Below are positions 2,994 through 31,279 of a DNA stretch of 64,000 bases, piece after piece. The notes beneath the pieces were generated by a model. It saw only the letters and a list, made by a program, of their open reading frames with translations, did not search any database and was not told the origin of the DNA. The translations under genes were made by a program, and so were the position numbers. Numbering within the stretch: position 1 is the stretch's first letter; each line of letters begins with the position of its first letter. The stretch is from contig NZ_CP028858.1 in the NCBI RefSeq assembly GCF_003058365.1, positions 558,001-622,000 on the forward strand, written 5' to 3'. Source of the stretch: Halococcoides cellulosivorans. Lineage in GTDB: Archaea > Halobacteriota > Halobacteria > Halobacteriales > Haloarculaceae.

Positions 2994-5248
2994 TGGCGAG
3001 AAACGTTTTCGAGACTGAAACACATCAAGACCGGCTTGAGGAAATCCTACTGGATCGATCGTACTCCTCAATATATGATATCACGGACCTGTACGGTCGA
3101 CTTCACAGCACGTATCTCTCCCTGAAATACGAAGGCGTCGGTGTCGACCAGAAATATATTGAGCAACGATTGACGCCTGAAGCCAGACCCGATTACTTTG
3201 AGCAGGGGATCGGGATGGTCAGTGTTCCAGTCAACATTTCGGAGAACACTGTCAGCTTTGGTACCGCTGGTGACGTAGTGGCAGCCGAAGCCGATTATGA
3301 CATGGATAGTATCGATCCCACTGCGCCGCTCTACGCCGAGCCCGTTGATCGGAAGAAACTCTTGCGTGTCGGGTACAGTCGTCAGGATAGTCGGGCAAGC
3401 GGGCACAATATGTCTCTCGCACATGATATCACGGACAAATCGCCAGCGAAGTGTGCAGGGTACATTAGGGATCTATTCACTCAGTGGTTGCAGTCAGACA
3501 TGGCGAGTGAGGTAGCAGAAGAACATCCAGACGGTGACCTCATCAACCGCCTTGCATCGTTGGAGTCAGAAGATCTCTCGAAGTTAGAAGAATCTGTCAA
3601 AGCAGAGTTCGAGAATCGGTTCCCCAGCGGGTTTACCGGTGTTCTTTCACTTCGAATTTTAACCGAGAACGGAGATCGGTTCAAGTATCCGGGCGAGTTT
3701 GAAGTCTTGAACGAGGTCACAAAACGTCGCTGGGTTGCCAATCAGATGCGGAGCTACTCTGAAGCAAAAGACAGCTCAGGAACAGCGACGGACTTTGTTA
3801 CGGGAGAACAGGGCGAAGTGTTCGGTGTCAGTGACTCCCCGCTTGAGCGACACCAGGGGAAGATGGCTGAGTCCTTTCCCGACCTTTCACCGGACGAAAG
3901 TTGGCGAAACAGACCGCTAAGCAGTGAGACTGCCTTTGCCATCATCAGTGGATCGTCCGTCGTCAAAGAGTTCGTCCATCTCCTCCGAGACGATACACGT
4001 CTCTATGTCATCCCGTACCTATCGAACCCGAATCCTGGGGAAGCAGTCGCACTGTACGACCTGGCTCGCAAGGCAATGGACGACGATGGCCAGATCGTCT
4101 CGGTGATCAGTGACGAATTGACTGACCGAAGTAGTCGGTTGTACGATTCCGGCGTTCAATTGTACTACTCGGTCGTCTATGAACCTGGTCGGAAATCGAA
4201 AATCCTGATCGAGGAACCGAGCGTTTCGGTCCAGAAAATGCGTTCGATCGCCGAGGCGCACACCGAACTCCTCGGTAGTGCATTGCTGGTTAGCCAGCCA
4301 AACAGACTGCCGCTGTTCCCGAGTCCACCATATGGCCGAACAAATAGTCAAACGGACGGCGACGAATATGACGGAAGTGAGTATCTCATGTCGTCGATGT
4401 CCGATGCTGTGTTTAGTGGGTTATTGAGTGGCGGGTACTTCGCGAGTACGTTCTTCGATCGAAAAGCCGACGCAGATGACGACAACTACGGTGCCAACGA
4501 TCCGTGGACGACCGCTACCCGACAGTGCCTGGGGCCAGATACCAGGCTCAACCCGGAGTGGCTCATGGACCAATACGTGCCACGCCTCGAGAATGAACAA
4601 CGCAGTTCTTTCGGTGAGGACGATCTCCCGGTGCCAGACTCATTGTTGACTCGCCAGTACGTTCAATATCAGGCATTAGCACGCGCTGGCGTTCTCGGTA
4701 TATCGGGTCAGGAGCCCGGTGACGCGCCACCCCTCACGCAACCCGTTCAAATCGATACTATGACAGACGACAGTAATCCAGCACGGCAGATGGCCGAGGA
4801 ACAATCGTTCGAGAACCGCGAACAGCGCCTCAATAAGTTCATCGAGGCACATCCTGCCCTCGACAAGAACGAAGAACGGCAGGGTGCGTTCCTTCTGGGG
4901 GCGCTGGTCGGACGTCTCGCAGCCTACCAAACGAGTCCAAAGAAGGACCTCTCGCGGACCGTAATGCGGCAGCATCCGATCAACTCGCTCACACTGCAGC
5001 GGTTTTCGACGACACTCAATCAGGTTCTTGACAAGAATGCGGTATACTCCGAGGAAGACGAGAACGTGAACTCGATCATGAACACTCGCTACGTGGAACG
5101 GCTGAACGATATCGTTCACTCAAAGCCACCCACCGAGTGGGACCTGAGTATCTCAGACCTGCGGATGCACTATGGCCTCGGCCTCTCGTACGGTCGAAGC
5201 GACACGTCGATCGGTACGTACAATGACGACGAAAGCAATAGCGAATAA
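2990..5248 (+). CDS. cas8b: Cas8b, large subunit of the type I-B Cascade complex
   Basis: Protein of 752 residues, the expected length for haloarchaeal Cas8b (Csh1 family). This subunit recognises the PAM on invading DNA and helps recruit Cas3. Assignment rests on its position between cas6 and cas7, its size and its overall character. I see no zinc-finger cysteine cluster. The start ATG overlaps the cas6 stop (ATGA). There is a second ATG immediately after the first, so the start could be one codon later. The cas7 start follows its stop by 15 nt. Confidence 0.9.
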   Translation: MMARNVFETETHQDRLEEILLDRSYSSIYDITDLYGRLHSTYLSLKYEGVGVDQKYIEQRLTPEARPDYFEQGIGMVSVPVNISENTVSFGTAGDVVAAEADYDMDSIDPTAPLYAEPVDRKKLLRVGYSRQDSRASGHNMSLAHDITDKSPAKCAGYIRDLFTQWLQSDMASEVAEEHPDGDLINRLASLESEDLSKLEESVKAEFENRFPSGFTGVLSLRILTENGDRFKYPGEFEVLNEVTKRRWVANQMRSYSEAKDSSGTATDFVTGEQGEVFGVSDSPLERHQGKMAESFPDLSPDESWRNRPLSSETAFAIISGSSVVKEFVHLLRDDTRLYVIPYLSNPNPGEAVALYDLARKAMDDDGQIVSVISDELTDRSSRLYDSGVQLYYSVVYEPGRKSKILIEEPSVSVQKMRSIAEAHTELLGSALLVSQPNRLPLFPSPPYGRTNSQTDGDEYDGSEYLMSSMSDAVFSGLLSGGYFASTFFDRKADADDDNYGANDPWTTATRQCLGPDTRLNPEWLMDQYVPRLENEQRSSFGEDDLPVPDSLLTRQYVQYQALARAGVLGISGQEPGDAPPLTQPVQIDTMTDDSNPARQMAEEQSFENREQRLNKFIEAHPALDKNEERQGAFLLGALVGRLAAYQTSPKKDLSRTVMRQHPINSLTLQRFSTTLNQVLDKNAVYSEEDENVNSIMNTRYVERLNDIVHSKPPTEWDLSISDLRMHYGLGLSYGRSDTSIGTYNDDESNSE

Positions 5249-22375: not shown

Positions 22376-24397
22376 TCAGACCTGTTCGAACAGCGCGAGC
22401 ACGTCCTGCGGGTCGACACGACCGTCGCCGGTGAAATCGAAATACTGCACGTTCTCCTGGATCGTGTCTGATTGTGCGTTCTGGAACAGGTAGTTCACGT
22501 CCGGGAAATCGATCTTTCCGTTCCCCGAGAGGTCCTCGTACAGGCCGTCACCGTCGGGATCGGTCATCTGATCGGGCAGGGTAGGCGTTCCAGTCGTGGT
22601 GCAGTCCGGGAACACCCTGTCTATGAGGCCGGGAATCTCCCGCTTGCAAGGGTCTTCACCGGGTGGAGCGTTCGCGGCGTGATCGTCGAGATACTCCTGC
22701 CACCACAGGCCCGGCGCGTCGGCTCGGGCACGCAGCTGCCACTCCGAATCGGGGGGATCCTCGAACAGCTGTGGTGAGTAGTCCCAGTCGAACCGCTCGA
22801 CGATCGGATGCACGGGGTAGTTCTCGAAGAACGTCCGGAAGCCGACGAAGGCCTCGCTCGATGGGTTCGTGTCGCCGTCCATGCCGAAGCGGTTCAGTTG
22901 GTCCTGCTCGTCGGCGCTCAACTCGTGTGAGAGCGGTCGCCCTGCGGGGTCGCCCCACTGTTCGATCGCTGTGGGGTCACCCTCGCCCCAGACGCCGGTC
23001 GTGCCGGCGAGATACTGGAACCAGAGATTCGAGCCACCCGACTCCCAGCCGAACGCGGTCACGACGACGGGAACGCGTCGGGCGGGTGTGCCGAAGTATT
23101 TCGAGAGCGGGCGCAGCGACGACTGCGTGTGGATCTGGGCCGCATACGCGACGTTGGTGGCCCCCGAATCGACGCCGGTCAGCGATGCGGTGCCGTTCGC
23201 GCCGTTGACGGTCAGTTCGGAGGCCCAGTAGGTCCACTGGCTCCAGCGCGGGCTCCCGACGGTCACCAGTCGGTGGGGTGCGTGCTCCGCGACGACGTTC
23301 AACCAGGGCTTCGCGCGTTCGAGGAAGAGCCCCCAGTACGGTCGGCCGTTCTCCGCGTCGTCGATCGGTTCGGGGCCCATGGCGCGACCGGCCCTGTTGT
23401 CGTCGGGCCGGCCTTCACGAGGGGTTCGAAGTGGCGCACCCCAGTCGCCGTAGTACGGCCCCGTCGGTGAACTGAACAGGTCGAACAGGACGTGCTGGTC
23501 GGCATCGCCGCCGTAGCGGTCGGCGACGGTTTTCCAGAACAGCAGGAGCTCCTCGCCGAGGAGGTCCTTACCACCCTGTGCCCCACACCACGGGTCGAAC
23601 CACGGGTCGGGGCTGTCGGGATCGTTCAGTCTGGCCTGATTGTGGGGGACGGTCTCGACGTCGGCGATCTGATCGGGGCCGTGCCAGAGGACGCCGCGTT
23701 CGCCACACATGCCCAGATCGTTCGGAAAGGTCTCGTTGCCACACGGGGCGTCATACTCGAACTGTGGTGTCGTCCAGTACTCCAGTCCCTTGTGTCGCTT
23801 GCGCTCGTATCGGCGCTGAAAGAACGCGGGGTACTCCCGGTGGTAGTCGAGCATGAGGTACGCCCCGCGCTCCCGGGCCACCTCGACGATCGGATCGACG
23901 TGTTTTTCGAGATACGTCGTCAGGTCGGCCTCGTCGAACGCGCCCGGTCTGATCGGCCCCCAGTACACGTCGTGGGGCATGTACGTCTCGTCGTCGCGTG
24001 TGTCGCCTCGGGCCGTGGCGGCACCGATCGCTTGCGGGGTGCAGGGGACGCGGACGACACTGTGGGGCCACTCGTCGCTGGTGGCCAGGGCGAGGATGTC
24101 TTCGATGGACCGGTGGCGAAACGAGCGCCGCGTGACGAGTGGATCGACCGTCGTTGCCCCGTGTAACTGCACCGGGTAGCCCGATTCGTCGACGATCTGG
24201 TTCCCTCTCGTCTGGAGGAAATCGAGGGATTCGACAGGGGTCGCACTCGCTGCCCCCAGCGTCCCGATTCCGAGGCCCCCACTCGCTGCGAGTGCGCCGA
24301 CGCTTTTGAGGATCGCGCGCCGATCCACGGCAGACCGGGGCGATCGATCCCCGTCGTTCGATGCCGCTCGACCGTCGGAGTGGGTGCGCCGTGTCAT
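22376..24397 (-). CDS. Secreted GH5-like dockerin protein 1 (both catalytic Glu lost)
   Basis: 673 residues. The Tat signal DRRAILKSVGALAASGG lies near residues 27-43, then a GH5-like barrel, then a C-terminal pair of dockerin-like calcium repeats (DPDGDGLYEDLSGNGKIDF and FDFTGDGRVDPQDVLALF). At the strand-4 site, where GH5 enzymes have NEP, this protein reads SSP (Ser near residue 310), and at strand 7 EFG is AFG (Ala near residue 448). The HxY of strand 6 is also changed. It is therefore probably catalytically dead as a retaining GH5 and may bind polysaccharide. Paralogue of the next three secreted proteins; the frame is intact. Confidence 0.85.
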   Translation of the reverse strand: MTRRTHSDGRAASNDGDRSPRSAVDRRAILKSVGALAASGGLGIGTLGAASATPVESLDFLQTRGNQIVDESGYPVQLHGATTVDPLVTRRSFRHRSIEDILALATSDEWPHSVVRVPCTPQAIGAATARGDTRDDETYMPHDVYWGPIRPGAFDEADLTTYLEKHVDPIVEVARERGAYLMLDYHREYPAFFQRRYERKRHKGLEYWTTPQFEYDAPCGNETFPNDLGMCGERGVLWHGPDQIADVETVPHNQARLNDPDSPDPWFDPWCGAQGGKDLLGEELLLFWKTVADRYGGDADQHVLFDLFSSPTGPYYGDWGAPLRTPREGRPDDNRAGRAMGPEPIDDAENGRPYWGLFLERAKPWLNVVAEHAPHRLVTVGSPRWSQWTYWASELTVNGANGTASLTGVDSGATNVAYAAQIHTQSSLRPLSKYFGTPARRVPVVVTAFGWESGGSNLWFQYLAGTTGVWGEGDPTAIEQWGDPAGRPLSHELSADEQDQLNRFGMDGDTNPSSEAFVGFRTFFENYPVHPIVERFDWDYSPQLFEDPPDSEWQLRARADAPGLWWQEYLDDHAANAPPGEDPCKREIPGLIDRVFPDCTTTGTPTLPDQMTDPDGDGLYEDLSGNGKIDFPDVNYLFQNAQSDTIQENVQYFDFTGDGRVDPQDVLALFEQV

Positions 24398-24410
24398 GGC
24401 TGAAACGAGT

Positions 24411-24435
24411 GGTGGCACCGATTTCAAATGCCACC
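24411..24435 (-). promoter_or_regulatory. Inverted repeat at the start of the GH5-like gene 1 transcript
   Basis: Perfect 7-nt arms GGTGGCA (24411-24417) and TGCCACC (24429-24435) with an 11-nt spacer. A TATA-like box (CTATAAAC on the plus strand, 24463-24470) lies upstream on the minus strand, which puts the repeat at or just after the predicted start of transcription. It could be an operator or an RNA hairpin. Not seen before the other three paralogues. Confidence 0.5.
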
Positions 24436-24502
24436 GATAGTTTCTATTGTTGATTTAATATGCTATAAACTTAACTGACACACGATATCCGGTGACGCGG
24501 CG

Positions 24503-26494
24503 TCAAACCATCTCGAACAGCGCGAGGACGTCCTGCATGTCGACGCCACCGTCGCCGTCGAAGTCGTAGAATTCGGCGTTGTCTTGCACGCGGTTCGAGT
24601 CGGTGTTCTGGAACAGCCGATTCACGTCGGGGAAGTTCAGCGTTCCGTCGCCCGAGAGGTCCTCGAAGAGAGCGTCGCCGTCGGGGTCGGTCGCGCCCTC
24701 GGGCCAGTCGGGCCGGGTCGACTCGACGAGATACTCCTGCCACCAGACGCCAGGGGTCTTCGAACGGGGGCGCAGCTCCCAGTCCCCGTCGTCGATCTCC
24801 ATGTCGTCGAAAAATCGAGGGTTCCAGGTGTGATCGAAATACGCGGCGATCGGGTGAACGGGATGCTCCTGGAAAAACGCCCTGAATCCGACGTACTCGC
24901 TGGGTGCGGGATAGTGATCGGCCTCGGTCTGGTGGTCGTCGATCGGGCACTCACTGCGGTCCTCGGGACACATGCCGAAGTGGTTCAGGCGGTCTTTTTC
25001 GTCGGCGTCCAGCGTCCGCGGATCGGGGACGCCCTCTGGACGCCCCCACTGCTCGATGGCGTCGCTGTCGCCGTCACCGAACACCGCGGTCGTCCCGCCG
25101 ATATAGGAAAGCCAGCGAGACCCACCGCCAGCATCCCAGCCGAACTCGGTGATGACGACGGGGACGTGCTCGGCGGGCGTGCCGACGGACGTCGAGAGCG
25201 GGCGGAGGTACTCCTGCGTGTGAATCTGGGCGGTGTAGGCAACGTTGGTCATACCGGCGTTCACGCCGGAGAGTGATTCCGTCCCGTTCGTACCGGTGAC
25301 GGTCTTCTCGCTGGCCCAGTAGGTGTACTGTGACCACCGCGGACTCCCAAGCGTCACCAGCCGTCCGGGCGCGTGCTCACCGATCGTGTCGAGCCAGGGC
25401 TTCACACGGTCTAAAAAGAGGTCCCAGTACGGGCGACTTCGATCGGGGTCGGTCACGTCAGGCGTCTCGTACGGCCACGGGTTCCCGCCGTATTCGGGCG
25501 CGTACCAGTCGCCGCCGTGGGGCCCCGACGAGGCTCTGTCCGGGGTGCCCCAACTGCCGGCGTAGGGGCCCGTCGGCGCGTTGAACAGATCGAAGACGAC
25601 GTGCCGGTCGGCATCGCCGCCGTACCGGTCGGCCACGGTTTTCCAGAACAATCGAACTTCGTCACCGAGCAGGTCCTCGCCGTCACCCGCCCCACACCAC
25701 GGGTCGAACCACGGATCGAGCATGTCGGAGTCGTTCAGCCGCTTTTGATTGTGTGGGAGTGATTTGATCTCGGTGATCTGGTCGGGCCCGTGCCAGAGGA
25801 CGCCCCGATGCCCACACATCCCGTAATCCCAGTCCCAGTCGTACTCGTCACTCTCCAGACAAAACCTCTCCCAGCTATCGTTCCAAAACTCGGTACCGCG
25901 GTGTTCCTTTTCTTCGTACAGTCGCTGGAAGAAGACGGGATACTCGCGGTGGTAGTCGAGCATGAGGGTGACGCCACGCTCCCGAGCGGCGTCGACCAGC
26001 GGGTCGATGTACCGGTCGAGATACTCTTCCAGATGGTCGGCAGTGAACGTTCCCGGCTTGATCGGGCCCCAGACGTCCTCGTGGGGAATGAACGATGAGG
26101 TGCCCGTGGAGTCACCGCGGGCGAGTGTCGCCGCGATGTCCTGAGGCTGACAGGGGACGCGGACGAGGTTGTGCGGCCAGTCCCGACTCGTCGCGAGTTC
26201 GAACATCTCCGAAGCGGTCTTGCCCCGCCACTGGCGCTGGGCGCGCAGCGGGTCGATCAGCGTCGCCCCGTGCAATTGTACCGGCGATCCAGACGCGTCG
26301 ACGATCTGATTACCGTCGGTCGCGAGGTGATCGGGCGTCGGGTCGCCAGCGCTGGCCGACCCGAGGAGACTCGTCCCGAGGACGCCAGCGGCCGTCCCGC
26401 CGGTCGCCCGGAGGATCGATCGGCGCGATGCCGGCCGGCCGGCGATCGGTGTCGATGCGTCGACTGTGTCGCTGTCCTCGTGGTGGGGTGTCAT
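24503..26494 (-). CDS. Secreted GH5-like dockerin protein 2 (acid/base Glu lost)
   Basis: 663 residues. Tat signal SRRSILRATGGTAAGVLG near residues 23-40, then the GH5-like barrel, then a dockerin-like doublet (DPDGDALFEDLSGDGTLNF and YDFDGDGGVDMQDVLALF). The strand-4 motif is NAP (Ala near residue 306) instead of NEP, so the acid/base residue is missing. The strand-7 nucleophile is kept (ITEFGWD, Glu near 450). Strand 6 reads QIH instead of HxY. AT-rich boxes at 26529-26555 are likely promoter elements, so it is probably transcribed singly. Confidence 0.85.
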   Translation of the reverse strand: MTPHHEDSDTVDASTPIAGRPASRRSILRATGGTAAGVLGTSLLGSASAGDPTPDHLATDGNQIVDASGSPVQLHGATLIDPLRAQRQWRGKTASEMFELATSRDWPHNLVRVPCQPQDIAATLARGDSTGTSSFIPHEDVWGPIKPGTFTADHLEEYLDRYIDPLVDAARERGVTLMLDYHREYPVFFQRLYEEKEHRGTEFWNDSWERFCLESDEYDWDWDYGMCGHRGVLWHGPDQITEIKSLPHNQKRLNDSDMLDPWFDPWCGAGDGEDLLGDEVRLFWKTVADRYGGDADRHVVFDLFNAPTGPYAGSWGTPDRASSGPHGGDWYAPEYGGNPWPYETPDVTDPDRSRPYWDLFLDRVKPWLDTIGEHAPGRLVTLGSPRWSQYTYWASEKTVTGTNGTESLSGVNAGMTNVAYTAQIHTQEYLRPLSTSVGTPAEHVPVVITEFGWDAGGGSRWLSYIGGTTAVFGDGDSDAIEQWGRPEGVPDPRTLDADEKDRLNHFGMCPEDRSECPIDDHQTEADHYPAPSEYVGFRAFFQEHPVHPIAAYFDHTWNPRFFDDMEIDDGDWELRPRSKTPGVWWQEYLVESTRPDWPEGATDPDGDALFEDLSGDGTLNFPDVNRLFQNTDSNRVQDNAEFYDFDGDGGVDMQDVLALFEMV

Positions 26495-26525
26495 GGATCG
26501 TGGCCTGGTCCAGCAGCGTCAACAC

Positions 26526-26556
26526 AAAAATTTATATTCAATATGTATAAAATTAC
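26526..26556 (-). promoter_or_regulatory. AT-rich promoter region of GH5-like gene 2
   Basis: About 30 bp of nearly pure A/T, with two TATA-like boxes 35-60 nt before the start codon of the gene at 24503-26494, in otherwise GC-rich DNA. Confidence 0.5.
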
Positions 26557-26696
26557 AGGGTAACTCTCGGCCGTTCGTCAGTCACGCACCATTCACCGAT
26601 CGAATTACAGCGGTCGCACGGCGAACGCCCACGGCTGTAGCCGGAAGAGAACGTCGACGGTGTGATGCAGGTGGAAACGTGCCGGTCGACAGCCGA

Positions 26697-28607
26697 TCAG
26701 ACCGTCTCGAACAGCGTGAGGACGTCCTGCAGGTCGACGCGACCGTCGCCCGAGAAATCGAAGTAATCCGCCTGTGACTGGACGGCCTCGGTGTCGGTCC
26801 GCTGGAACAGGTCGTTCACGTCGACGAAGGTCACGCGCCCGTCGCCGTCGAGATCTTCGTATCGGCCGTCGCCGTCCGGATCGGTCGGCCCCGGATCGGT
26901 CGGCCAATGGGGCGGGTTCGGGTCGGCGTGGTCAGCGAGATACTCCTGCCACCAGACACCAGGCGTGTCCTCGCGCGGGTTCAACTCCCAGTCGCCCTCG
27001 GTGACGTGCTCGTCGGCAAAGAAGCGTGGGTCCCAGGTGTGATCGAAAAACCCGGCGATCGGGTGGACGGGGTGGTTCTCGAAGAACGGCCCGAACCCGA
27101 CGTAGTCCTCTTTCGGGGGGTAATGGTCGCCACCCATCCCGAAGTAGTTCATCTCCCGCTTTTCGCTCTCGGAGAGCTCGTTGGGATCGGGCTTGCCTTC
27201 GGGGCGGCCCCATTCTTCGAGAGCGGCCGGGTCGCCGTCGCCCCAGACCGCCGTCGTGCCCGCAAGGTGGGTCTCCCAGTCCGGGCCGCCGCCGGACTCC
27301 CAGCCGAACTCGGTGAACACGACCGGAACGAGTTCGGCGGGCTGTCCGAAGTACTTCGAGAGCGGGCGGAGCCCCTCCTGGACGTGAGCGTGGGCGGCGT
27401 ACGCGACGTTGGTCGCGCCTGAATCGACGCCTGTGACCGAGTCCGTCCCGTTGACGCCGTTGAAGGATGTCTCCTGGGCCCAGTAGGTGAACTGCGACCA
27501 GCGTGGGCTGCCGACGGTCACCAGGCGCTCGGGGGCGTGCTCGGCAACCGTGTTGAGCCAGGGTGTCGCGCGTTCGAGGAACAGGTCCCAGTATGGACGA
27601 CCGTTCTCGGGGTCGGTGAGATCGTACGTGATCTCATACCCGCCGGTGTTGGAGGGCATTCGGCCTGGCCCCGCCCAGTCGTTGACGTAGGGCCCCGTCG
27701 GTGCGTTGAACAGATCGAAGACGACGTGCCGATCCGAATCGCCGCCGTACCGATCGGCGACCGTCGACCAGAACAGGTCGAGTTCCTGACCGAGCAGGTC
27801 GTCGCCGCCATCGGCCCCACACCACGGATCGAACCACGGATCGGCCCTGCTGGGGTCGTTCAGCTTGTTCTGGTTGTGCGGAATGTTCTTGACGTCCTCG
27901 ATCTGGTCGGGGCCGTGCCAGAGGACGCCCCGGTGGCCACACATGCCTACGTCCCAGTCCCAGTCGTACTCGGTGCTCGGGCCACACCACTCCTCGCCGT
28001 AGTCGTTGTCGCCGTTCCAGTAGTCGACGCCACGGTGTCGCTTCTCGTCGTACAGTTGCTGGTGGAAGACGGGCGCCTCCCGATGGTAGTCGAGCATGAG
28101 GTAGACCCCGCGCTCGCGGGCGGCGTCGACCAGCGGGTCGATGTACCGGTCGAGATAGGCGTCGAGGTCGTCGCTGTCGAACGTGCCCGGCTTGATCGGC
28201 CCCCAGTTGTCGCCGTGGGGAATGAACGATCCGGTGGCCGTGGAGTCACCGCGTTCGAGGGTGGCCGCGATGTCCTGGGGCTGACAGGGGATCCGCACGA
28301 GCGAGTGCGGCCAGTCCGGGCCCGTTGCCAGCGCGAACATCTCCTCGGCGGTCTTCCCGCGCCACTCTCGTTGCGCACGGAGCGGATCGATCAGCGTCGC
28401 GCCGTGTAACTGGACTGCTTCCCCGGACTCGTCGACGATCTGATTGCCCTCGGTCGCGAGGTGATCGAGCGCGGGAGCGGCCCCACGGGCCGACCCGAGC
28501 AGACTCGCGCCGAGGACGCCGGCGGCCGTCCCGCCGGTCGCCCGCATGATCGATCGTCTGCTCGTGGTCACGCGCTCGTCGCCGGTGGTGGGTGAGGGTC
28601 TCGACAT
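26697..28607 (-). CDS. Secreted GH5-like dockerin protein 3 (acid/base Glu lost)
   Basis: 636 residues with Tat signal SRRSIMRATGGTAAGVLG near residues 16-33. The GH5-like barrel carries NAP (Ala near residue 302) in place of NEP, keeps the nucleophile motif FTEFGWE (Glu near 433), and reads HAH where the intact paralogue has HSY. The C-terminal dockerin-like doublet is DPDGDGRYEDLDGDGRVTF and FDFSGDGRVDLQDVLTLF. A TATA-like TTATTTTTATGA (minus strand, about 28646-28658) and a GAGAGGAGTG ribosome binding site precede the start. Closest overall to proteins 2 and 4. Confidence 0.85.
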   Translation of the reverse strand: MSRPSPTTGDERVTTSRRSIMRATGGTAAGVLGASLLGSARGAAPALDHLATEGNQIVDESGEAVQLHGATLIDPLRAQREWRGKTAEEMFALATGPDWPHSLVRIPCQPQDIAATLERGDSTATGSFIPHGDNWGPIKPGTFDSDDLDAYLDRYIDPLVDAARERGVYLMLDYHREAPVFHQQLYDEKRHRGVDYWNGDNDYGEEWCGPSTEYDWDWDVGMCGHRGVLWHGPDQIEDVKNIPHNQNKLNDPSRADPWFDPWCGADGGDDLLGQELDLFWSTVADRYGGDSDRHVVFDLFNAPTGPYVNDWAGPGRMPSNTGGYEITYDLTDPENGRPYWDLFLERATPWLNTVAEHAPERLVTVGSPRWSQFTYWAQETSFNGVNGTDSVTGVDSGATNVAYAAHAHVQEGLRPLSKYFGQPAELVPVVFTEFGWESGGGPDWETHLAGTTAVWGDGDPAALEEWGRPEGKPDPNELSESEKREMNYFGMGGDHYPPKEDYVGFGPFFENHPVHPIAGFFDHTWDPRFFADEHVTEGDWELNPREDTPGVWWQEYLADHADPNPPHWPTDPGPTDPDGDGRYEDLDGDGRVTFVDVNDLFQRTDTEAVQSQADYFDFSGDGRVDLQDVLTLFETV

Positions 28608-28704
28608 CAGTCTGGGGCACTCCTCTCAAAATTCGCGCTAAAGTATCATAAAAATAACGGTGAATTACTCCGATATCCTCGATCGGGCCGAGCGGGCTGG
28701 ACGG

Positions 28705-29211
28705 TCACCCGAGGCCTTCGCGCCGAGAGTGCGCCCAGACCGCGAGCGCGACGGCGACCAGCAGGCCCTGAAGCACGAACAGCGGGGTCAACTCCATCGC
28801 GAGGAGGTGGGCCAGAAACGACTGGTCGACCGTGTACGTCGGCGGGTCGAGCAGGGGCCACCCCAGATAGCTCAACTCACCGAATTCGCCCGCGAGAATC
28901 CCTCCAAGCCCGTCCGCCCCGAGATGCGACCCGATTCCGAGCGTGCCGGCGACGACCACGCGTCGGTGGCGACGCCCGGCGAGTATCGCGACGACGGCGA
29001 TCAGCGGCGCGAGCACGACCACCGAGTGCGCGAGCGATCGCCCGACGGGGAGGACGTCCAGTGTCCACGCGAGCGGCTTGTCGATCAGGTCCGGCAGTTG
29101 GCTGCCCACGAGTGCGACTGCCGTCACTCCGATCGTCGGCTCACGATCGCGATGCCACTCGAATCCCGCGAGCGCGAGGTACGCGACGGCGAGATGTCCC
29201 CATGGCCACAT
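28705..29211 (-). CDS. Membrane-bound metal-dependent hydrolase-like protein (DUF457/YdjM type)
   Basis: 168 residues from the ATG at 29211 (MWPWGHLAVAYLAL). Four or five hydrophobic segments are visible. The His of WGHLAVAY, the SQLPDLIDKP segment and the RSLAHSVVVL histidine match the metal-binding pattern of YdjM/DUF457 inner-membrane proteins. Substrate unknown. It sits between two of the GH5-like genes on the same strand but has no evident link with them. The longer frame to 29340 has a Cys/Arg-rich off-family start. Confidence 0.75.
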   Translation of the reverse strand: MWPWGHLAVAYLALAGFEWHRDREPTIGVTAVALVGSQLPDLIDKPLAWTLDVLPVGRSLAHSVVVLAPLIAVVAILAGRRHRRVVVAGTLGIGSHLGADGLGGILAGEFGELSYLGWPLLDPPTYTVDQSFLAHLLAMELTPLFVLQGLLVAVALAVWAHSRREGLG

Positions 29212-29293
29212 ACCGCTGTTCGGTGAGTGAATCGGGAAAAGCTGTCGACGGCAGAAAAGACGAACGACGACTCGACTGTGCTGGTCGTGCGCG

Positions 29294-31279
29294 TCAGACC
29301 ATCTCGAACAGCGCGAGGACGTCCTGCATGTCGACGTCACCGTCGCCGTCGAAGTCGAACTTCGCGTCGCTCGTTTCGCTGGTGTTCTGGAACAGCGAGT
29401 TCACGTCGGGGAAGTCGATCTTCCCGTTGCCGTTGACGTCCTCGTAGAGGCCGTCACCGTCGGGGTCGGTCGCGTCGGCACCGAATCCGCCGGTGCTACC
29501 GTCGTCGCCCGTTGGCCACTGCGCACCCGAGATGTCCTCCCAGGTGTTGTCGCCACCCGGCGGTGCGTCCTCGCCGTGGTCGTTGACGTACTCCTGCCAC
29601 CAGACACCGGGCGTGTCCGCGCGGTCGTTGAGCTCCCAGTTGCCGTTGCTGACCTGCTCGTCGCTGAAGAAGCGCGGCGCCCACGTGTGGTCGAAACACC
29701 ACGCGAACGGGTGGACGGGGTGGTTCTCGAAGAACTCACGGTAGCCGACGTAGTCCTCTTTCGGGGGGTAGTCCTCGCCACCCATCCCGAAGTGGTTCAT
29801 CATCTCTTTCTCGTTCTCTCCGAGTTCCTTGGGGTCGGGCTTGCCTTCGGGTCGGCCCCACTCATCGATGGCGCTCTCGTCGCCGTCGCCCCAGACGGCA
29901 GTCGTGCCGCCGAGGTGGGTGAACCAGTCGGGACCGCCGCCGGCTTCCCACCCGAACTCGCTGTACATGACCGGGACCTTCCACGAGGGCGTCCCGAAGT
30001 ACTTCGAGAGCGGACGGAGTCCTTCCTGGACGTAGGAGTGGGCGGTGTAGCCGATGTTGTTGGCGCCGCTGTCCATGCCGCTCATGGAGTCGGTGCCGTT
30101 GACACCGTTGTAGGTCAGCTCCGAGGCCCAGTAGGTCCACTGCGACCAGCGCGGGTTGCCGATCGTCATGAACCGTTCGGGGGCGTTCTCTGCGACCGTG
30201 TTGATCCACGGCTTCGACCGCTCCATGAACAGTTCCCAGTAGGGCTTGCCGTTCTCTTCGTCGGTGACGTCGGCGGTCCCCGAGTCGTACCCGTCGTCGC
30301 CGGAGGGCGTCCGGCCGGGTTCGCCCCAGTCACCGAAGTACGGCCCCGTCGGCTCGTTGAAGATGTCGAAGACGACGTGGTCGTCGGAGTCGCCACCGTA
30401 GTGGTCAGCGACGGTCTCCCAGAACATGCTGATCTCGTTTCCGACGAGGTCCTCGCCGCCGTCGGCCCCGGCCCACGGATCGAACCACGGATCCTCGGTG
30501 TCGGGGTCGTTCATTTTGTTCTGGTTGTGCGGAATCGACTTGATGTCCTCGATCTGGTCCGGGCCGTTCCAGAGGTAGCCACGGTGGCCACACATGCCCT
30601 CGTCCCAGTCCCAGTTGTACTCGCTGCTCGGGCCACACCACTCGTCACCGTACTCGTTGTCGCCCTGCCAGTAGTCGACACCACGGTGGACCTTCTCCGC
30701 GAACTGCTTCTGGTGGAACACCGGGATGTGGGTGTGCATGTCGATCAGGACATACGCGTTGGCCTCCCTGGCGGCGTTGACGAGCGGGTCGACGAAGTCG
30801 GTCAGATAGTCCTGCAGCGTGCTCTGCGAGAACGTGCCCGGCTTGATCGGACCCCAGTTGTCCCCGTGGGGGATCATCGATTCCGTCTGGGTTTCGTTGG
30901 GGCCGCGGTTGATCCGCGCGGCGATGTCCTGCGGCTGCGTCGGCAGGCGCACCATGTTGTGCTTCCAGTCCGCGTTGGTGGCCAGCGAGAACATCTCCTC
31001 GATGTTCTTGCCACGCCACTGCCGGTTGGCGCGCAGCGGGTCGATCAGGTTGACCCCGTTGAGCTGGACCGGGTTGCCGGACTCGTCGACGATCTTGTTG
31101 CCTTTCGTCGAGAGGTGGTCGAGCGAGTCGACCGGTGCCCCCGATGCCGTGCCCAGCAGCGACGAGCCCACGACGCCGGTGGCTGCCGCCGCACCAGCGC
31201 CTTTGAGCACGTTCCGCCGCGAGGCTGTCATGTCCGCACTACGCTTCGAGTCGTCGGTCGGTGTGTTTGATTTACTCAT
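29294..31279 (-). CDS. Secreted GH5-type cellulase-like enzyme with dockerin tail (active site intact)
   Basis: 661 residues from the ATG at 31279. Tat signal SRRNVLKGAGAAAATGVVG near residues 21-39. All GH5/clan A markers are present: MVRLPTQP, IDMHTH, IFNEPTGPY (acid/base Glu near residue 309), TAHSYVQ (HxY), and YSEFGWE (nucleophile Glu near 441). A Gly/Asp linker leads to a dockerin-like doublet (DPDGDGLYEDVNGNGKIDF and FDFDGDGDVDMQDVLALF). It probably hydrolyses cellulose or a related beta-glucan outside the cell. The 60-residue upstream frame extension is rejected because the Tat motif lies near the chosen start. Confidence 0.9.
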   Translation of the reverse strand: MSKSNTPTDDSKRSADMTASRRNVLKGAGAAAATGVVGSSLLGTASGAPVDSLDHLSTKGNKIVDESGNPVQLNGVNLIDPLRANRQWRGKNIEEMFSLATNADWKHNMVRLPTQPQDIAARINRGPNETQTESMIPHGDNWGPIKPGTFSQSTLQDYLTDFVDPLVNAAREANAYVLIDMHTHIPVFHQKQFAEKVHRGVDYWQGDNEYGDEWCGPSSEYNWDWDEGMCGHRGYLWNGPDQIEDIKSIPHNQNKMNDPDTEDPWFDPWAGADGGEDLVGNEISMFWETVADHYGGDSDDHVVFDIFNEPTGPYFGDWGEPGRTPSGDDGYDSGTADVTDEENGKPYWELFMERSKPWINTVAENAPERFMTIGNPRWSQWTYWASELTYNGVNGTDSMSGMDSGANNIGYTAHSYVQEGLRPLSKYFGTPSWKVPVMYSEFGWEAGGGPDWFTHLGGTTAVWGDGDESAIDEWGRPEGKPDPKELGENEKEMMNHFGMGGEDYPPKEDYVGYREFFENHPVHPFAWCFDHTWAPRFFSDEQVSNGNWELNDRADTPGVWWQEYVNDHGEDAPPGGDNTWEDISGAQWPTGDDGSTGGFGADATDPDGDGLYEDVNGNGKIDFPDVNSLFQNTSETSDAKFDFDGDGDVDMQDVLALFEMV

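Follow-up and report, generated by a model that had tools for sequence, protein, structure and literature searches.

Members of glycoside hydrolase family 5 (GH5) that have given up catalysis are already on record. Non-catalytic GH5 modules occur in GH5_30, in a Xanthomonas subgroup of GH5_1 and in a GH5_8-like lipoprotein group (PMC3526467), and the same paper describes Rsi24C-GH5 of Clostridium thermocellum, which is without the acid/base, binds crystalline cellulose and acts as a carbohydrate biosensor. In a different family, GH18, pseudo-chitinase lectins such as YKL-39 are secreted relatives of glycosidases that have lost activity and kept glycan binding (PMC7828330). The subject here is a set of four GH5 genes in the haloarchaeon Halococcoides cellulosivorans HArcel1, at positions 22376-31279 of a window of 64,000 nucleotides (the whole stretch of DNA that was analysed) from a genome assembled as a single contig of 2,723,120 bases. 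Three of the encoded proteins have lost residues of the GH5 active site to different degrees, and the fourth has the complete set.

The four genes form a minus-strand array of proteins with a twin-arginine translocation (Tat) signal, a GH5 domain and a dockerin-like tail. Every frame is open, and PF00150 (GH5) scores over the Pfam cut-off in all four, which bears out the four intact GH5 paralogues of a preliminary description made from the sequence. Protein 4 (29294..31279, minus strand) is the predicted endoglucanase-like active enzyme. Proteins 3 (26697..28607, minus), 2 (24503..26494, minus) and 1 (22376..24397, minus) are pseudo-GH5 proteins, the last the most degenerate of the set; protein 1 starts at the ATG at 24397, and a longer alternative is the TTG at 24427. 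Identity to protein 4 falls from 67% (protein 3) through 58% (protein 2) to 53% (protein 1). The Tat signals and dockerin-like tails of the preliminary description also stand: TIGR01409 calls the signal in protein 4, and in proteins 1-3 a visible RR motif is followed by a hydrophobic stretch. Among the proteins of the window, Dockerin_1 is over its cut-off in 1 and 3 and slightly under it in 2 and 4; in the genome-wide search protein 4 exceeded the cut-off, and protein 2 likewise, with its neighbours. On these matches to Dockerin_1, whose hallmark is a pair of calcium-loop repeats, the tails classify as type I dockerins.

Eight residues are nearly invariant in GH5 enzymes: Arg, His, Asn, Glu (the acid/base), His, Tyr, Glu (the nucleophile) and Trp, which in the numbering of protein 4, used throughout, are R111, H182, N308, E309, H414, Y416, E441 and W527. 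Protein 4 carries all eight. Protein 3 keeps five (R111, H182, N308, H414 and the nucleophile E441), with the changes E309A, Y416H, W527G and H184E; protein 2 keeps four (R111, H182, N308 and E441), with E309A, H414Q, Y416H, W527A and H184E; protein 1 keeps only R111 and H182, with N308S, E309S, H414Q, Y416H, E441A, W527E and H184E. The codons of N308-E309 in protein 4 (the NEP motif) lie, as calculated from the residue numbers, at 30353..30358 on the minus strand, and the codons aligned to them encode N-A in both protein 3 and protein 2, with S-S in protein 1. On strand 4, the Glu that follows Asn in an active enzyme is thus replaced by Ala in two of the copies (2 and 3) and by Ser in protein 1. 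The nucleophile on strand 7, calculated to be encoded at 29957..29959 on the minus strand in protein 4 (SEFGW), is retained as Glu in proteins 2 and 3 and is Ala in protein 1 (TAFGW), which accordingly is without the nucleophile of an active enzyme. The motifs first reported (NEP, HxY, which reads HSY, and EFG in protein 4, NAP and EFG in 2 and 3, SSP and AFG in 1) were all recovered, and the losses extend beyond them to the HxY motif, Trp527, His184, which is Glu in proteins 1, 2 and 3 alike, and, in protein 1, Asn308.

These changes are confined to a few proteins. Of the 78 haloarchaeal GH5 frames in the alignment (some of them fetched twice), 74 keep all of N308, E309, H414, E441 and W527, so chance is ruled out as an explanation. 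An acidic residue at 184 is found in none of the 74 conserved frames; it is present in the four proteins that are without the acid/base, namely proteins 1-3 and L122, a protein of another haloarchaeon introduced below. The search gave 23 GH5 matches in the H. cellulosivorans genome, and the acid/base Glu is present in every other GH5 protein fetched from it. One of its GH5 proteins, L017 (G000:C1:1602075-1603010), has HxH in place of HxY and keeps both glutamates. Outside the active site, conserved positions are largely retained in proteins 1-3, including 20-21 of the 24 invariant aromatic residues of the family. Protein 4 itself also deviates from residues invariant in the family (DMHTH vs DYHRH, C410G, F438M), and given these changes its activity or substrate may be unusual too.

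Are the altered positions really those of the GH5 active site? The segments with the acid/base Glu, the nucleophile Glu and the Trp align by profile to solved GH5 cellulases, such as 4hty. Sequence identity to solved enzymes is only ~20%. The structures predicted for proteins 4 and 1 are of modest confidence (mean predicted local distance difference test score, pLDDT, 64 and 60; predicted template modelling score, pTM, 0.77 and 0.72, respectively). Both models match 4hty, protein 4 with Z 28.8 over 295 residues at 2.8 Å and protein 1 with Z 28.2 over 286 residues at 2.8 Å, and SdGluc5_26A and CjCel5C tie with 4hty as best structural matches. The Foldseek and VIA matches of both models are GH5 enzymes, which with the PF00150 scores of all four proteins places them in GH5 (clan GH-A). 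Because the motif segments align by profile and the models match GH5 structures, proteins 1-3 are, on these alignments and models, GH5 by descent and fold with the catalytic set gone, and the homology to solved enzymes supports the earlier identification of the lost residues as the acid/base and the nucleophile.

Three sets of genomes were searched for homologues: 146 from the same family, 392 sampled from the order and 125 from a second family. The same GH5 type was found in 31 genomes, all within the two families, and every homologue that was read is intact except one. This is L122, a protein of 580 residues from Natronobiforma cellulositropha JCM 31939, a member of the other haloarchaeal family, encoded within a large GH5 cluster (L122:994-2736, on a contig of 131,303 bases) and showing by eye an RR signal and a dockerin-like tail. 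Its changes are D180T, H182Q, H184D, N308S, E309A, Y416F and W527T, and the nucleophile is retained. An intact sister, L121, lies in the same GH5 gene cluster, and all 16 remaining GH5 matches in the N. cellulositropha genome have the acid/base. Forcing L122 and proteins 1-3 into one clade costs 156 log-likelihood units (approximately unbiased, AU, test, p 3e-52); L122 was consequently rejected as an orthologue of proteins 1-3, and the acid/base must have been lost at least twice. At 81 positions that are invariant in 27 intact relatives and protein 4, four (184, 309, 416 and 527) are changed in proteins 1, 2 and 3 alike; L122 is altered at 20 of the 81, including all four of these, for which the hypergeometric p, worked out by hand, is ~0.003, a value that is only descriptive because the active site was of interest beforehand. 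A study of 13 cellulotrophic strains grouped HArcel1, AArcel2 and AArcel5 as "specialists", the last two being N. cellulositropha (PMC10267330). The lineages with pseudo-GH5 copies are thus both of the specialist lineages, a correlation of two cases.

What might such proteins do? The reading that we favour, and hold to be rather likely, is that proteins 1-3 are secreted, non-hydrolytic pseudo-glycosidases with a dockerin tag, whose most likely property is carbohydrate binding; the inactive copies probably do useful non-cutting work such as gripping cellulose. On this proposal, tandem duplication of a gene of the GH5 cellulase type would have given rise to proteins 1-3, with the intact protein 4 as its present representative. 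Hydrolysis of glycosidic bonds would have been lost in the three copies, since they have neither the acid/base Glu nor the Tyr and Trp of the -1 subsite, and protein 1 has no nucleophile either. The barrel, most conserved aromatics, the Tat signal and the dockerin-like tail are retained. The old cleft would then hold a glucan chain or a cellulose surface with no cutting, and the tail would connect the protein with other secreted components or with the membrane-anchored cohesin that the genome encodes, for attachment of the cell or presentation of the substrate. A non-cutting GH5 barrel joined to a dockerin-like tail would suit the part of a subunit that binds glucan at the cell surface or close to it.

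The genomic context offers possible partners for such tails. The H. cellulosivorans genome has 56 dockerin matches and two cohesin domains. Both cohesins are in adjacent genes outside the window (L155:2220-3728 and 3737-4363; G000:C1 ~2196219-2198362), whose products are a beta-helix/cohesin/dockerin protein and a small one-cohesin protein with a C-terminal transmembrane stretch. Two cohesins vs 56 dockerin matches could point to a surface complex of minimal, archaeal type. When isolates of this group grow on cellulose they hold fast to the insoluble polymer, and insoluble cellulose is degraded by cell-bound activity only (PMC4569967).

The residue loss, the intact frames, the constraint, the predicted fold, the tails and the independent recurrence are observed here. 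The binding or helper part of the role first suggested for these proteins (binding, scaffold or helper) is the best explanation, and the independent Natronobiforma case has strengthened it; several points nevertheless weigh against it. The lack of activity, the binding of cellulose and the contact between tail and cohesin are what we infer, and a Pfam dockerin match alone is no proof of cohesin binding. The active-site Trp and Tyr, which help to hold the sugar in the -1 subsite, have gone as well, and binding may be weaker than that of the enzyme. The models are of only modest confidence, as their mean pLDDT values indicate, and the Ala and Ser at these sites come from the one Halococcoides species that the search covered.

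The loss of Trp and Tyr also feeds the alternative that survives best, which is nonetheless unlikely: a role independent of sugar binding, as a structural surface protein, a modulating partner of active cellulases or a filler of cohesin sites. The acidic replacements, among them W527E in protein 1, would weaken sugar binding further, and the export signal and tail are retained. Yet the barrel and most conserved aromatics remain, and the only characterised inactive GH5 that is named in PMC3526467 binds cellulose.

Could some of the copies still be enzymes? Proteins 2 and 3 and the Natronobiforma copy might have a rebuilt site, in which Glu441 persists as the nucleophile and the lost acid/base is replaced by the acidic residue at 184 (Glu or Asp) or by a base from outside. 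The nucleophile is indeed retained in three of the four proteins that are without the acid/base, and the acidic 184 is confined to these four among the 78 frames, with two independent origins. However, the copies have also lost Tyr416 and Trp527, protein 2 has Gln in place of His414, and protein 1 retains Glu184 though its nucleophile is lost, and we regard continued catalysis as distinctly improbable. A wider version is equally speculative: two haloarchaeal lineages lost the acid/base on strand 4, gained an acidic 184 and mostly retained the nucleophile, and their active site might have been converted to a different reaction, or to the capture of glucan by a covalent bond or by tight binding, as a trait linked to specialist life on cellulose.

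More improbable still is that the copies are early pseudogenes that have drifted since duplication. Protein 1 has a long branch in the tree, and active-site residues are frequently the first to go. The three genes, however, have 636-673 codons with no stop or frameshift, whereas random substitution into protein 3 at 0.2 per site gave a mean of 9 stops and a minimum of 3 in 300 runs, and this makes simple decay unlikely. The pairwise ratio of nonsynonymous to synonymous rates (dN/dS, by the method of Nei and Gojobori, NG86) is 0.35-0.48 across the six pairs, with 0.36 for proteins 1 and 2, both of them inactive copies, and so far under 1, although these values are approximate because synonymous divergence is high (0.7-1.1). 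With the parallel case of L122 in another family added, decay was rejected, in agreement with the view of the preliminary description that the changes are not simple gene decay. Finally, that the pattern is an alignment artefact, with other glutamates taking the catalytic positions, is hardly credible in spite of the low identity to solved enzymes, as the four proteins are 53-70% identical, the motif regions align free of gaps and the motif segments match solved GH5 enzymes by profile.

The order in which the residues were lost is a further question. The closest relatives of the four proteins in the tree are intact haloarchaeal GH5 proteins. The tree from all columns places protein 4 outside a clade of proteins 1-3 (98%), within which 1 and 2 are sisters (96%); it would imply that E309, Y416, W527 and H184 were changed first, H414 next, and N308 and E441 last. 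However, the AU test does not reject some ladder trees in which protein 4 falls among the copies, and once the nine active-site columns are removed, trees of this kind score about equal to those with the clade of proteins 1-3. Trees from segments conflict: over the first third protein 3 stands with 1 and 2, over the last part it stands with 4, and sliding identity agrees. Protein 3 (26697-28607) looks like a mosaic, its first third closest to protein 2 and its last part closest to protein 4. Gene conversion between the tandem copies is the likely cause of the conflict, and the evolutionary order is weakly supported because of possible recombination between them. The "stepwise" loss first proposed therefore holds as a nested pattern of residues (five, four and two of eight kept) but is not proven as a branching order.

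As for the surroundings, the four genes do not simply follow one another: a gene for a YdjM-domain membrane protein (28705..29214, end approximate, minus strand), outside the GH5 set, is interposed between proteins 4 and 3. The remaining neighbours are housekeeping genes, for topoisomerase VI B, a HerA-like helicase, an amine-oxidase-type flavoprotein, a GHMP kinase and Hsp70.

How archaea break down cellulose is poorly understood, and one array that spans an active site from complete to nearly lost offers natural variants for testing the passage from glycosidase to binding protein. That a second specialist cellulotroph shows the change independently leads to a prediction, open to test, on what specialists need. 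Furthermore, automatic counts of GH5 in these genomes would overstate the number of active cellulases.

How does the array compare with what has been described? A literature search restricted to open-licence papers found no reports of inactive GH5 in haloarchaea. The non-catalytic modules of PMC3526467 are alike in that catalytic residues are absent from GH5 domains, and some of those groups evolve rapidly; they differ from the present case, which is a graded tandem set from an archaeon, lies beside an intact paralogue and combines a Tat signal with a dockerin tail. Rsi24C-GH5 is the nearest functional precedent, its GH5 domain also being without the acid/base; that domain serves as the external sensor of a membrane anti-sigma factor, while the proteins here are free and secreted, have a dockerin-like tail and carry no transmembrane sensor. 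Among solved structures, SdGluc5_26A, CjCel5C and the metagenomic Cel5A 4hty come nearest in fold to proteins 4 and 1 (Z ~28), but their catalytic glutamates are present, their catalytic domains are far shorter and the solved chains have no dockerin-like tail. YKL-39, unlike proteins 1-3, belongs to another glycoside hydrolase family and to animal hosts. Inactive GH5 modules as such are thus already known; what is new is that an archaeon has them as a graded series in tandem, with a parallel in a second specialist.

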